A DNA stretch of 64,000 bases from Salinispora arenicola. GTDB lineage: Bacteria > Actinomycetota > Actinomycetes > Mycobacteriales > Micromonosporaceae. A program made the position numbers and the translations under genes. The stretch spans positions 3,038,001 through 3,102,000 of the forward strand of contig NZ_VFOL01000001.1 in the NCBI RefSeq assembly GCF_006716065.1. Direction: 5' to 3'. The number at the start of each line of letters is the position of its first letter. Within the stretch, counting starts at the first letter, position 1. Shown in pieces: positions 29,097 through 32,671 of the stretch. The notes under the pieces were generated by a model. It worked only from the letters and a program-made list of their open reading frames with translations, made no database searches and had not been told where the DNA came from.

Positions 29097-29732
29097 CTAC
29101 TGCTCCTGAATCGCCCGTAACAGGATCTCGCTCGCCTTCTGTGCGGCTTGCGCGTCGGCGCGTAGCCGATCCGACTGTTCGGAGAGGCGTGACTCCGCTC
29201 GGGACAGGGCCTCATGGGCAACCTGGACTGCGCTCACGAGCGCCTCGTGCCGTGCCTGCAGTTCCTGAAACCGGTGCCGGAGGTCGGCGGCCTGAGAGTC
29301 GGTGGAACGAACGGCGTGGGCGTGGGTGTGGGCGAGGATGTCCTCGGCCTGGCGTCGTGCCTCGGCGAGGATCTCCGAACTCTCCGCACCGGCGTCGCTG
29401 ATCGTGCGGTTGGCCTCCTCCTGTGCCCGCATGGTCAGCTCGACAGCCACCGGGTCAGCTGCCTGCGGCGCGGCGCTCGGTAGGGAACCGTAACGCAACA
29501 TCTCGATCTGGCCGACAAGGCCGTGGGCCTCGCGCCCCCTGCGGTCGATCTCGCCGTGCAGCAGCGACATGCGGTCATCGGCGAAGCGGGCCACCGCGGT
29601 GACCTCGGCCATGGAATACCACTGTCGGCCGCGGAAGCGGCGGGTCGTCAGGAGGCCGAGGCGTCGGGTTACCTCGCCGGGTTCTGGTTGCTCCGTGTCC
29701 TGCGCTGCGTTTCCAGGACCCTCGTTGGTCAT
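29097..29732 (-). CDS. Coiled-coil DivIVA-like protein in NO synthase operon
   Basis: The 211-residue protein is third in the operon and begins 4 nt after the flavohaemoglobin stop. The first 35 residues are polar. A block LGLLTTRRFRGRQWYSMAEVTAVARFADDRM then resembles the lipid-binding head and following hinge of DivIVA/Wag31-type proteins. From about residue 55 to the end it is almost continuous predicted coiled coil (EIDRRGREAHGLVGQIEML, ILAEARRQAEDILAHTHAHA, RHEALVSAVQVAHEALSRAE). No enzymatic motif is seen. Proteins of this kind mark poles or septa, or act as scaffolds. Tight coupling to NO synthesis genes is unusual and suggests scaffolding or localisation of the two enzymes. That is inference only. 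Confidence 0.7.
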   Translation of the reverse strand: MTNEGPGNAAQDTEQPEPGEVTRRLGLLTTRRFRGRQWYSMAEVTAVARFADDRMSLLHGEIDRRGREAHGLVGQIEMLRYGSLPSAAPQAADPVAVELTMRAQEEANRTISDAGAESSEILAEARRQAEDILAHTHAHAVRSTDSQAADLRHRFQELQARHEALVSAVQVAHEALSRAESRLSEQSDRLRADAQAAQKASEILLRAIQEQ

Positions 29733-29736
29733 CGGG

Positions 29737-30960
29737 CTATTCCCTATTGAGGTTACGCGGCGCCCGTGCTTCGGCCGCTGACAATGGTGGATAGTGTGAG
29801 TGGTCGTAGCTCTCGGTCATGATGCGGCTGGGGTCGACCCCGGAGGCGGCCAGCGCGGTGATGGAGGCTTGGGTCATTGCGGGGGATCCGCAGATGAGAA
29901 TGTCGGCCTCTACCCACGAACCGAGTCGCAACGCGACATCGACGGCTCGACCGACCGCGCCGTCCCAGCCCCACCCTAGCTCTACCGTCGGCACGTAGCG
30001 CAGCCATGGTGCGGTGCTGCCGTCGGTGCGAGGCATAGCCGGTGCCGATGCGGCGAGCTTCAACAGCGTCTGGTGGTCATAGAGATCGTCGGGGGTGTAG
30101 CCGCCCAACACCAGGGTGGTGGGTCGACCAGAACCCTGCTGGAGCTCTTCCACGATCGCGCGCAGCGGCGCCAGGCCGGTGCCTCCCGCGATGAGTAGGA
30201 GCGGTCGGTGCGGTGCGCGGTCGTAGGCCGACAGGGAGGCTCCAACGGGGTGCCCCAGCAGGAGAACATCACCGACGGTGATCCGTCGGACCAGATGGGT
30301 CGAGAATCGTCCTGCCGCCCGAACGTGGAACTCGATCGTCCCGTCCGGGCGGGGCGCGTTGGCTGGTGACAGGTACCGCCAGGTGCGCAGCGTCGGTATC
30401 TGCGTCGGCAGGGACTGTCCTGGTAGGTAGTCGCAGCGGTAGTTCGGTCGAAGGGTGATCACGGAGAGGTCGGAGCGGCGGCGCTCTGTGGTGATCACCT
30501 CCGCACGCCAGGACGGGGGCGTGTGCTGTTCGGACTCGGCGGCGCCGGCGAGCATCAAACCGGCGACAGCCTGGTACGCCTCAGCCCAGCTTGCCTTGAG
30601 GCTCGGCGTCCACTGGGGCCCAACGAAGTGCTCCAGCGTTGCCAGGAGGGCCTGGCCGACCCACATGTAGTGGCGATCCGCCAGTGGCACCGGCCGGCCC
30701 TCGAGGTCGACTCCGTGGAACCGCCGGTGGTCAGCCCCCAGCCGATGTGTGAATGCGGTGAGGGCTGCCGAATCATCGAGGCTCGTGATGATGTGGCCGA
30801 GTGCCGCGAGGAGTTTGTCCTCCTGATACTGCATGTTGACGGGAAACATGGTGCGGGTCTCAGGGGCGATGACAAACAGTGTCGCGTAGAAGTATTTCGC
30901 CGCTCTGGAGCCGGCGGCGGCGACTTGGTTCCAGCTCTGACGCAGGGCCGTGACATCCAT
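29737..30960 (-). CDS. hmp: Flavohaemoglobin (NO dioxygenase type)
   Basis: The 407-residue protein joins a globin (residues 1 to about 140) to a ferredoxin-reductase module. Key globin residues align with E. coli Hmp: Tyr25 (B10), Gln45 (E7) and proximal His78 (F8, LGADHRRF). The FAD domain has WRYLSPAN and the NAD domain LLIAGGTGLAPLRAIVEEL and CGSPAMTQASI. Such proteins oxidise NO to nitrate with O2 and NADH. ATG 30960 is 3 nt downstream of the NO synthase stop, so the genes are coupled. It could detoxify the NO made by its neighbour, convert it to nitrate, or use its reductase module to feed electrons to the synthase, which lacks one. Confidence 0.9.
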   Translation of the reverse strand: MDVTALRQSWNQVAAAGSRAAKYFYATLFVIAPETRTMFPVNMQYQEDKLLAALGHIITSLDDSAALTAFTHRLGADHRRFHGVDLEGRPVPLADRHYMWVGQALLATLEHFVGPQWTPSLKASWAEAYQAVAGLMLAGAAESEQHTPPSWRAEVITTERRRSDLSVITLRPNYRCDYLPGQSLPTQIPTLRTWRYLSPANAPRPDGTIEFHVRAAGRFSTHLVRRITVGDVLLLGHPVGASLSAYDRAPHRPLLLIAGGTGLAPLRAIVEELQQGSGRPTTLVLGGYTPDDLYDHQTLLKLAASAPAMPRTDGSTAPWLRYVPTVELGWGWDGAVGRAVDVALRLGSWVEADILICGSPAMTQASITALAASGVDPSRIMTESYDHSHYPPLSAAEARAPRNLNRE

Positions 30961-30963
30961 GGG

Positions 30964-32181
30964 TCAGCCCCCCTGTAGGGCGGCCGCGTTCTGCTCCCGC
31001 AGAGTTGGCTCCGACAGCGGTGTGCGGGCGCGTGGCCAGAAGTTCGGGTTAGGCATACGGGTGTCGTAGTAACGATGGTGTACCGCGTGGAGCGCTGCCC
31101 ACCCAACCGAGCCGTTGAGCCATGACCAGTCGCCGTAGACGGGACGCCCCGCCTGTTCTTCATGGGCGCAGAAGCGCATGAAGAGTTCTGACTCTCGGTG
31201 CGGTTCGGAGATCCGGACACCGGCATCACGGAAGCTGTGTAGGACAGCTTGATTGATAAGTAATGCCGCATGTTCTCGCCACAACGATGCCTCGTTCTCA
31301 GTATTGAGGCCCAGCCCTGCAGCTACGGTCCGTAGCTGGTTGTAACGGCCGACATCGCACATGTTGCGAGTGCCGATCTCGTCGGCGAGATAATGACCAT
31401 TGAACGGGGCGCAACTGTAGTTCACGCCACCGATGCGTAGGCGCATGTTGGCGATCACGGGTAGGGCGTGCCATTGGAGCCCGAGGTCTGCGAACCAGGC
31501 GTGATCGGGATGGGCCAGCGCGACCTCGCGCACCAGATGGCGAGGGACGTCAACGACGGTGGGATCCTCGGTGGCGGTTTCGATCACCCAGGGAAGCAGA
31601 TCGAACCTGCTGGCGACATCAGGTGGCTTCCAGCCAAGCTGTAGTGCCGCCTCGGTCATGCCCTGCTGGGCGGGGTCGCCCAGGACCTCGTCGTCCAGCT
31701 GCCATCCGCAGTATCGGATCAGTTGATCGTTCCAGATGCGGGCCCGTGGTCCTGTCTGCGGGTGATCAGGGGCGAACACGGTGATGACGGATCTGATCCG
31801 TCCCCCGTTGTCGGCGACCCGGAGGTGTTCGGCCAGCTCGCTGTCGATGCCGTTGATGGTAGTGACCGCGCGGCGGTCGCGGACCTGTAGTCCGGACCAG
31901 CGGGCTCGGCCGATACATCGCGCGGACTGTCGCCATGCTGCCCTGGCGCCGTAGGCCAGTTCGGCTGATGTCTGCCAGTAGGTGCCGGTGGTGGCGATTT
32001 CATCGAGGACGCCGGCGATGCGGTTGGCAACATCGGACAGTTTTCGTTCCTTGTAGTAGGCGGAGATGAATTCGATCGCCTCAGTGGAAGGGTCTTCGGT
32101 TGGATCTACCGAGGGTGGGTTGATGTGACGTGCAGGATATCTCACCTGCTCACTGCAATCGCGAGTATTGCTGACTGTCAA
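30964..32181 (-). CDS. nos: Bacterial nitric oxide synthase oxygenase
   Basis: The 405-residue product oxidises L-arginine to citrulline and NO. It is the oxygenase domain alone, as in all bacterial NOS of this type. The haem-ligating cysteine is Cys89 in SARCIGRARW, and the substrate-binding glutamate is Glu268 in ADEIGTRN. The blocks ITVFAPDHPQTGPRARIWN, LQWHALPVIANMRLRIGGVNYSCAPFNGHY and GDWSWLN...HHRYYDTRMPNPNF are family-typical. His263 stands where bacterial NOS normally has tryptophan (NGWYM). The start is TTG 32181, with GTG 32145 as an alternative; the N-terminus is about 30 residues longer than usual. It leads a three-gene operon with hmp and a coiled-coil gene. Confidence 0.93.
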   Translation of the reverse strand: MTVSNTRDCSEQVRYPARHINPPSVDPTEDPSTEAIEFISAYYKERKLSDVANRIAGVLDEIATTGTYWQTSAELAYGARAAWRQSARCIGRARWSGLQVRDRRAVTTINGIDSELAEHLRVADNGGRIRSVITVFAPDHPQTGPRARIWNDQLIRYCGWQLDDEVLGDPAQQGMTEAALQLGWKPPDVASRFDLLPWVIETATEDPTVVDVPRHLVREVALAHPDHAWFADLGLQWHALPVIANMRLRIGGVNYSCAPFNGHYLADEIGTRNMCDVGRYNQLRTVAAGLGLNTENEASLWREHAALLINQAVLHSFRDAGVRISEPHRESELFMRFCAHEEQAGRPVYGDWSWLNGSVGWAALHAVHHRYYDTRMPNPNFWPRARTPLSEPTLREQNAAALQGG

Positions 32182-32236: not shown

Positions 32237-32671
32237 GAACTTAATGGGGTTGCTCGCTTTAGGGTCGGCGCCATGCCAGCATTCCTGGAGATTCGCGAAC
32301 TGTCAAGACTGGATAGATAAACTTTGGGTATTCTCGCCCAACTCGGCTCACAGTCTGTTGATTCGAGGGTCTACCGGGCTGTGACCTGGGGTTCTGGGTC
32401 AGGGGGCACGCACTAAACGGGCTGGGTTCTATCGTGTCGACCGGTGACCCACGTGCAGGCGGGGTGAAGGCGGTGTCCGAAGCGCGGGTGGTAGACCGGG
32501 TACTTTCGGCAGCAGGGGAGCGGGCGATCGCGCACAACGCGTTGGCGTGTATGGATGCGGACCTGGCGCTGTCGAAGGCAGCGGGCCGGCAGCGGATGGC
32601 TGCGAGGCAGGGCGAGTTGGATCTGTGTCTGGCGGACGCTTCGGCCAACGGGGGCGGTCGGATTGGTAGCC
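32237..32671. other. Gene-free stretch upstream of NO synthase operon
   Basis: No convincing gene was found. A plus-strand frame at 32434-32715 (93 codons) has no ribosome site or recognisable domain and overlaps the end of the next gene. Base composition is lower in GC at 32240-32360 than in the surroundings, consistent with a promoter region or a junction of inserted DNA. Confidence 0.4.

Follow-up and report, generated by a model that had tools for sequence, protein, structure and literature searches.

A nitric oxide synthase, a flavohaemoglobin and a coiled-coil protein encoded side by side in Salinispora arenicola: a candidate module for making and handling nitric oxide

Introduction

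To our knowledge, most bacterial nitric oxide synthases (NOSs) lack a built-in reductase, and it is largely unsettled which proteins naturally supply their electrons and what becomes of the nitric oxide (NO) that they make. A stretch of 64,000 nucleotides from Salinispora arenicola (NCBI RefSeq assembly GCF_006716065.1, contig NZ_VFOL01000001.1, positions 3,038,001 to 3,102,000; hereafter the window) raises both questions at a single locus, because a gene for a NOS oxygenase (NOS-A) is followed closely by genes for a flavohaemoglobin (FHb-A) and a coiled-coil protein. Here we ask whether these three genes form a unit, with which relatives the unit shares its members and its chromosomal site, and what it might do. 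The genome to which the window belongs is 5.63 Mb in one contig.

Results

A conserved unit of three genes

The features considered here are the following (window coordinates):
30964-32181, minus strand: NO synthase oxygenase NOS-A, 405 amino acids, TTG start, assigned by Pfam
29737-30960, minus strand: flavohaemoglobin FHb-A, 407 amino acids, with globin, FAD and NAD domains
29097-29732, minus strand: coiled-coil protein, DivIVA-derived and with a degenerate DivIVA head, 211 amino acids
32278-32306, minus strand: candidate promoter, TTGACA (32301-32306), 17 nt, AATGCT (32278-32283)

The three minus-strand open reading frames (ORFs) are separated by 3 nt (NOS/FHb) and 4 nt (FHb/coiled coil), exactly as stated in an initial, sequence-only reading of this DNA. 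That reading had also regarded them as one coupled unit and had named an unlinked third gene in homologous loci as grounds for giving this up; comparison bore the unit out: order and strand were the same in 19 of the 19 genomes of the genus in which linkage could be tested and in three further loci, which rules out the third gene as a chance neighbour. The genus sample comprised 121 genomes. NOS-A was present in 20 of them, the window's own included, with 68-79% identity to the window NOS; FHb-A was present in the identical 20 genomes and the coiled-coil gene in 19, the contig of the twentieth (G089) stopping within the FHb gene. Gene order and strand were identical in all NOS-A loci of the genus. 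The gap between NOS and FHb genes was 2-5 nt in 20/20 loci, and a 4-nt overlap between the FHb and coiled-coil genes was seen in 14 of the 18 loci where it could be measured (the others: -8, +4, +7 and +1340 nt). We infer from this arrangement that the three genes are transcribed as a single mRNA. Pairwise distances of the three proteins were correlated (r 0.91-0.95 for 18 operons, relatedness not removed).

Among the three further loci, that of S. fenicalii (L120) was complete, and two others (L238, L243) contained the FHb, the coiled coil and the C-terminus of the NOS at the contig edge. A scan of contigs with the window NOS protein returned one locus, from Salinispora fenicalii. The NOS and coiled-coil searches scored about 8000 best candidates. 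Among the matches listed (for NOS proteins the best 120 of 783), the named NOS-A proteins and loci closest to those of the window came from Micromonospora and Salinispora; the named ones among the 82 matches of the coiled coil were from these two genera and from Plantactinospora sp. GCM10030261, whose NOS-A (P0131) and coiled coil (P0081), each from a 181,342-nt contig, probably lie on one contig. In the family as a whole, 15 of 300 genomes had the coiled coil, each of them from the genus (1 of 44 genera; E<=1e-15), and a class-wide search gave matches in 30 of 394 genomes, strong only in two of the genus; the other 28 were weak (E 3e-8 to 1e-3) and mostly over the coil.

The linkage is not a general property of NOS genes. 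At 20 of the 27 other-NOS genomes of the genus, inspected with flanks of 0.4-7.9 kb (mostly 6-7 kb; shorter ones included L089, L090, L095 and L098), and at 30 of 53 non-A NOS genomes across the class, inspected with flanks of up to about 1.5 kb, the neighbours included neither an FHb nor a truncated haemoglobin nor a DivIVA partner, and an FHb neighbour for every NOS is thereby ruled out.

NOS-A is a variant NO synthase

NOS-A scored 411.9 bits against PF02898 (cut-off 22.7; Pfam NO_synthase, E 2.8e-123) and retains Cys89, Trp83, Glu268, Arg272, Trp352 and Trp354. We take Cys89 to be the haem ligand, Glu268 the substrate glutamate, and Arg272, Trp352 and Trp354 part of the pterin site. These five residues were found in 73/73 rows of the NOS-A type; all 20 NOSs of the genus set entered the underlying alignment (A2). 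The protein lacks the canonical tryptophan of PFNGW, His263 standing in its place; the loop WLNGSVGWAALHAVHH replaces the canonical W[IL]VPP..S...T..FH, with NGSVGWAALHAVHH where canonical NOSs have VPP.S...T..FH. His263 together with NGSVGW occurred in 73/73 NOS-A rows, a set that mixes genome loci with database proteins and repeats some organisms, and Trp together with the PP loop in 46/46 canonical rows. A further 69 NOS rows carried N-loops of other kinds; the position of the PFNGW tryptophan held Phe in 47 of them and Trp in 17, and two rows did not extend over the region. A midpoint-rooted tree of 59 of the 190 rows separated N-loop from canonical NOSs by a split with 100/100 support. 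The position of the rebuilt loop presumably touches the pterin and the dimer interface.

Many other NOSs, partly of metagenome origin, were also seen without the canonical PP loop, being of NGH, NSH and NSYPMTPQDPSW types (P0136-P0202, L081, L089-L091, L094-L096).

The linked flavohaemoglobin

FHb-A carries globin, FAD and NAD domains in one chain, and the earlier description of it as a flavohaemoglobin with an NAD/FAD module was upheld by Pfam (NAD_binding_1 2.5e-10, FAD_binding_6 3.4e-5, Globin 1.2e-11). Tyr25, Gln46, His78, Tyr98, Arg195 and Ser198 were invariant in 17/17 aligned operon FHbs (alignment A3, 17 of 20; L107, L109 and L111 omitted). Tyr25 and Gln46 are presumably distal and His78 proximal, Arg195 and Ser198 belonging, as we assume, to the FAD site. 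Of the residues named in the sequence-only reading, Tyr25 and His78 thus stand, and the distal glutamine is Gln46 instead of Gln45. Solved structures gave no match to the A3 profile at E<=1e-20, and these positions therefore rest on alignment with relatives. Between the proximal His78 and Tyr98, an insertion of 10 residues was present in 13/13 operon FHb rows vs 0/29 other FHb rows.

Two operons alternate at one chromosomal site

Ten loci of the genus without NOS-A (L071-L080) had a related arrangement, consisting of a MerR-type gene, a truncated haemoglobin, a second flavohaemoglobin (FHb2, 43-46% identical to FHb-A), a DivIVA-domain coiled coil and then a Sir2 or NAD(P)-binding gene, or in L078 the end of the contig. 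Pfam assignments of these products included Bac_globin (1.3e-15, L074) and DivIVA (29 bits vs a cut-off of 28, L075). At 92/92 FHb2 loci (91 of the 121 genomes), a DivIVA-partner match of like orientation lay at most 300 nt downstream, and the truncated haemoglobin came first in 11/11 FHb2 operons read at the usual site.

The NOS operon was located between the same MerR gene and Sir2 in 17 of 20 NOS-A genomes (in 16 of them with Sir2 visible; the L109 contig ended first), and truncated haemoglobin was absent from 19/19 fetched NOS-A loci. FHb2 was present in 2/20 NOS-A genomes vs 89/101 others (Fisher p 1e-11, uncorrected for relatedness), and 12 genomes of the genus had neither. In the window genome the MerR-Sir2 site is empty, Sir2 following directly after MerR (L226), and the NOS operon is found beside lipA instead, as it is in G062 (L102); in G057 the truncated-haemoglobin operon is at the old site (L225) and the NOS operon elsewhere (L103). 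Given this occupancy across the genus and in these three genomes, the two operons replace each other at a single locus, with the NOS version found at three chromosomal sites, and the NOS occupies the slot of the truncated haemoglobin ahead of the FHb-DivIVA pair.

Partial DivIVA-partner matches were seen in two genomes with neither FHb2 nor NOS-A (G061:C1:6306061-6306339 and G112:C228:3985-4295), one of them with an internal stop; these are perhaps remnants of a lost operon.

Flavohaemoglobin and DivIVA beyond the genus

A midpoint-rooted FHb tree of 42 rows (13 operon FHbs, seven FHb2s and 22 others; L206, L215, L217, L221 and L224 to be read with caution as long branches) contained a split with 100/98 support, one side of which held FHb-A, FHb2, two further FHbs of the genus and FHbs of three other families of the order. 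A DivIVA-headed protein was encoded just downstream in 8/8 non-genus loci of that side (L206-L210, L216, L217, L220) and in L222 and L223; nine loci across the split had no DivIVA-headed protein by tblastn at E<=0.01. Three FHb2 genomes (G015, G062, G114) represent a more distant lineage. L222 (G062) and L223 (G114) lie elsewhere in the chromosome, with a truncated haemoglobin upstream in L223 and none found in L222. Since a truncated haemoglobin was upstream only in L206 among the eight non-genus loci, it is no fixed member of the FHb-DivIVA set. FHb and DivIVA are the older pair, and also the commoner one, and because they are paired at all FHb2 loci and at all eight non-genus loci, the coiled coil tracks the FHb lineage rather than being an innovation tied to NOS. 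In L209 the DivIVA-linked FHb gene is directly preceded by another, only distantly related FHb-like gene (about 25% identity to FHb2), and in L210 such a gene adjoins the DivIVA-linked FHb on the opposite strand.

Descent of the coiled-coil protein

The third protein of the window had no Pfam family over cut-off and no DivIVA (PF05103) match at E<=0.1; three of its relatives reached 15.7-16.4 bits against that model (cut-off 28), and the NCBIfam Wag31 model gave 26.5 bits over the coil (cut-off 260). Its last 116 residues contain no proline and one glycine. The coiled coils of the genus were aligned for 18 of the 19 loci (A1, L111 omitted). Profiles were compared for 44 coiled coils (A5), 13 rows of DivIVA-domain FHb partners (alignment A4, with 8 of 10 partners, L076 and L078 omitted, plus L206, L208, L209, L222 and L225; six other partner loci lay outside) and 13 Wag31 rows. 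The coiled coil matched the FHb partners by hhalign at 98.3% (E 9.6e-14, 211 columns), and the partners matched Wag31 at 99.4% (E 6.6e-21), both values of a kind that coils can inflate; a smaller alignment of coiled coil and partners gave 95.2% over 64 columns, and the direct comparison of coiled coil with Wag31 only 57.7%. The coiled coil and the partners share a block (EMLRHGTLPS and ELHRHGVIPS, respectively), and the head motif RGY..EVD is degenerate in the coiled coil (RRFRG..W.S..EV). Together, the profile and motif comparisons argue that the protein is a divergent descendant of the DivIVA family with an ancestry common to the FHb partners, without being a member by the Pfam rule. The DivIVA-like character first suggested for it holds as relatedness, through the profile match to the partners, and in part only for the head, which is degenerate and has no Pfam match. 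An ATP-synthase-type stalk was considered as an identity and rejected, the Pfam matches being weak, confined to the coil and under cut-off.

Promoter region and neighbouring genes

An element of the form TTGACA-17-AATCCT was found upstream of the NOS gene in 19 of 20 loci, the exception being L103; no TTGACA-17 element was found before the truncated-haemoglobin operons (0/11). A palindrome, CAGGAATCCTG (CAGGA.TCCTG), was seen 5' of the NOS gene and overlapping the -10 region in 7 of the 20 NOS loci (L105, L106, L107, L109, L110, L114, L115); it is a possible operator, is degenerate in the window and plays no part in the argument.

In the window, the operon is preceded by lipA and a long ORF that by eye has the appearance of a membrane protein, and is followed by glnA and two short ORFs. 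The GC content at third codon positions (GC3) of the three operon genes (0.71, 0.78 and 0.80) is below that of four neighbours (0.89-0.92), which hints that the trio arrived later at this site.

Discussion

The reading that we favour, if only tentatively, is that the operon is a co-expressed module combining a source of NO with its handling, which takes arginine to nitrate and/or passes electrons from FHb to NOS, and which includes a scaffold. NOS-A would convert arginine to citrulline and NO, and FHb-A, with O2 and NADH, would turn the NOS-derived NO into nitrate, thereby keeping NO low or local and leaving nitrate as the product. This nitrate could be reused, since the genome encodes two NarG-type nitrate reductases (1567 and 1606 bits; cut-off 1084) and a NasC-like one that is below its cut-off (778 vs 1100). 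The FAD/NAD module of FHb-A may also pass electrons to NOS-A. The coiled coil would bind FHb-A, much as an ancestral form presumably did with FHb2, and would anchor this enzyme at the membrane or a pole.

Several observations weigh against this reading or lend it no support. The Trp-to-His replacement and the rebuilt loop could alter the chemistry of NOS-A. FHb-A falls far below the cut-off of the Hmp equivalog (NF009805; 73.7 vs 432 bits), and its top NCBIfam score was with the monooxygenase reductase MmoC, in the reductase half, a match equally in keeping with electron supply and with NO removal. The two narG genes and the sub-cut-off NasC-like gene prove nothing about the operon. In L103 (G057), the sole such case, 1.3 kb with an extra ORF separates the FHb gene from the coiled-coil gene, and in L111 (G103) the FHb frame is broken while the NOS and coiled-coil matches are free of stops, which may reflect assembly error or decay, the two being indistinguishable.

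It is possible, though on the unlikely side, that FHb-A is chiefly an electron donor, its FAD/NAD module reducing whichever haem protein without a reductase is encoded by the first gene, so that NO would leave as a signal or for biosynthesis. That the same site carries truncated haemoglobin-FHb-DivIVA operons (11/11 loci read) points this way, as do the absence of a flavin domain from both haem proteins encoded by the first genes, the MmoC match and the insertion beside the proximal His, which is specific to NOS-linked FHbs. However, the globin half retains the NO-dioxygenase residues examined, for which a mere reductase would have no need, and outside the genus a haem partner comes first in only one of eight loci (L206), which makes no rule. 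The exchange of truncated haemoglobin for NOS thus favours electron donation, whereas the intact NO-dioxygenase residues favour NO removal; both may hold, and the electron-donor role is compatible with a module that makes and handles NO, not exclusive of it.

We consider it distinctly unlikely that NOS-A is something other than a plain NO synthase, whether an enzyme that stops at N-hydroxyarginine, one that uses another cofactor, or mainly a haem sensor or NO/nitrite-handling protein. Such a role would accord with the invariant His263 and NGSVGW loop, with the fully supported separation from canonical NOSs and with the position of NOS-A in a slot that is held by a non-synthase haem protein in other genomes, but the Cys ligand, the substrate Glu, Arg272 and both loop-side Trp residues are invariant and the family score is high. 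It is very improbable that the genes have nothing in common beyond their promoter and past recombination at a single site, and that their products act independently. The site does hold one operon type, the other or none, yet three different sites carry the trio, whose genes overlap at starts and stops and are present or absent together.

The NO-source and NO-handling module that we favour could also be one form of a more general arrangement, a proposal that is speculative and unlikely in its full extent. In such a DivIVA-scaffolded haem-redox module of actinomycetes, the coiled coil would fix FHb at the pole or septum. The first gene would supply an interchangeable partner, either a truncated haemoglobin or a remodelled NOS, which FHb would assist both as a reductase and as an NO dioxygenase. 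Where this partner is a NOS, arginine would be turned into nitrate, or NO signals sent, within a restricted space at growing tips, and NOS-A and FHb-A would have adapted to each other by way of the rebuilt loop and the 10 inserted residues.

In part, such chemistry has precedents. In the available part of its description, SyNOS of Synechococcus PCC 7335 is a fusion of globin, NOS oxygenase and NOS reductase for which conversion of arginine nitrogen to nitrate was proposed (PMC6104048), and the globin-NOS arginine-to-nitrate idea in itself is already published in the form of this fusion. The operon resembles SyNOS in joining a NOS oxygenase with a globin and a flavin reductase. Unlike SyNOS, which on the same partial text is one fused protein with a mammal-like reductase, it has separate genes and hence no globin-NOS fusion; its reductase is of the FHb type, its NOS loop differs, and a DivIVA-derived protein joins as third partner. 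The excerpts available of two further papers report that Fhb of Streptomyces coelicolor oxidises NO to nitrate and that Fhb and Nar make up a nitrogen oxide cycle in Streptomyces (PMC4766573), and that the NOS haem takes its electron 'from a reductase' (PMC9500659). Dedicated gene settings for actinobacterial NOSs are also found in nitration clusters (TxtD, RufN, PtnF; PMC10831120); those, as far as the available text of that study goes, are biosynthetic clusters, which were the starting point of its genome mining for NOSs.

Like stand-alone bacterial NOSs, to which its nearest solved structures belong, NOS-A is an oxygenase only, with the same haem and substrate residues by alignment, but it has His for Trp in PFNGWY, no PP loop and a dedicated linked FHb. 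FHb-A shares globin, FAD and NAD domains, distal Tyr and Gln and proximal His with Hmp-type flavohaemoglobins, and differs in its low equivalog score, its 10-residue insertion and its linkage to a NOS and a coiled coil. The truncated haemoglobin-FHb-DivIVA operon of Micromonospora has the same chromosomal place and homologous second and third genes, although truncated haemoglobin comes first there, the DivIVA head is intact and no TTGACA-17 element was found. The coiled-coil protein is homologous to the DivIVA-domain FHb partners, themselves Wag31 homologues, but is set apart from DivIVA/Wag31 by its degenerate head, its failure to reach the Pfam cut-off and its low direct match to Wag31.

In the open-licence literature searched, no description of the three-gene NOS-FHb-coiled-coil unit was found among the best matches listed, nor was truncated hemoglobin found together with flavohemoglobin and DivIVA; the texts available in part gave no link between flavohaemoglobin and DivIVA. 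The FHb-DivIVA pairing and the alternation of truncated haemoglobin and NOS at one site are new here.

For bacterial NOSs, the linkage of these genes singles out a partner dedicated to the NOS. At this site NOS and a truncated haemoglobin replace each other, and the two natural versions of the locus make electron donor and NO sink directly testable by comparison. The operon is also a candidate for endogenous nitrate production in a filamentous actinomycete, and the pairing of FHb with DivIVA ties the handling of NO and oxygen to a family of cell-pole proteins.

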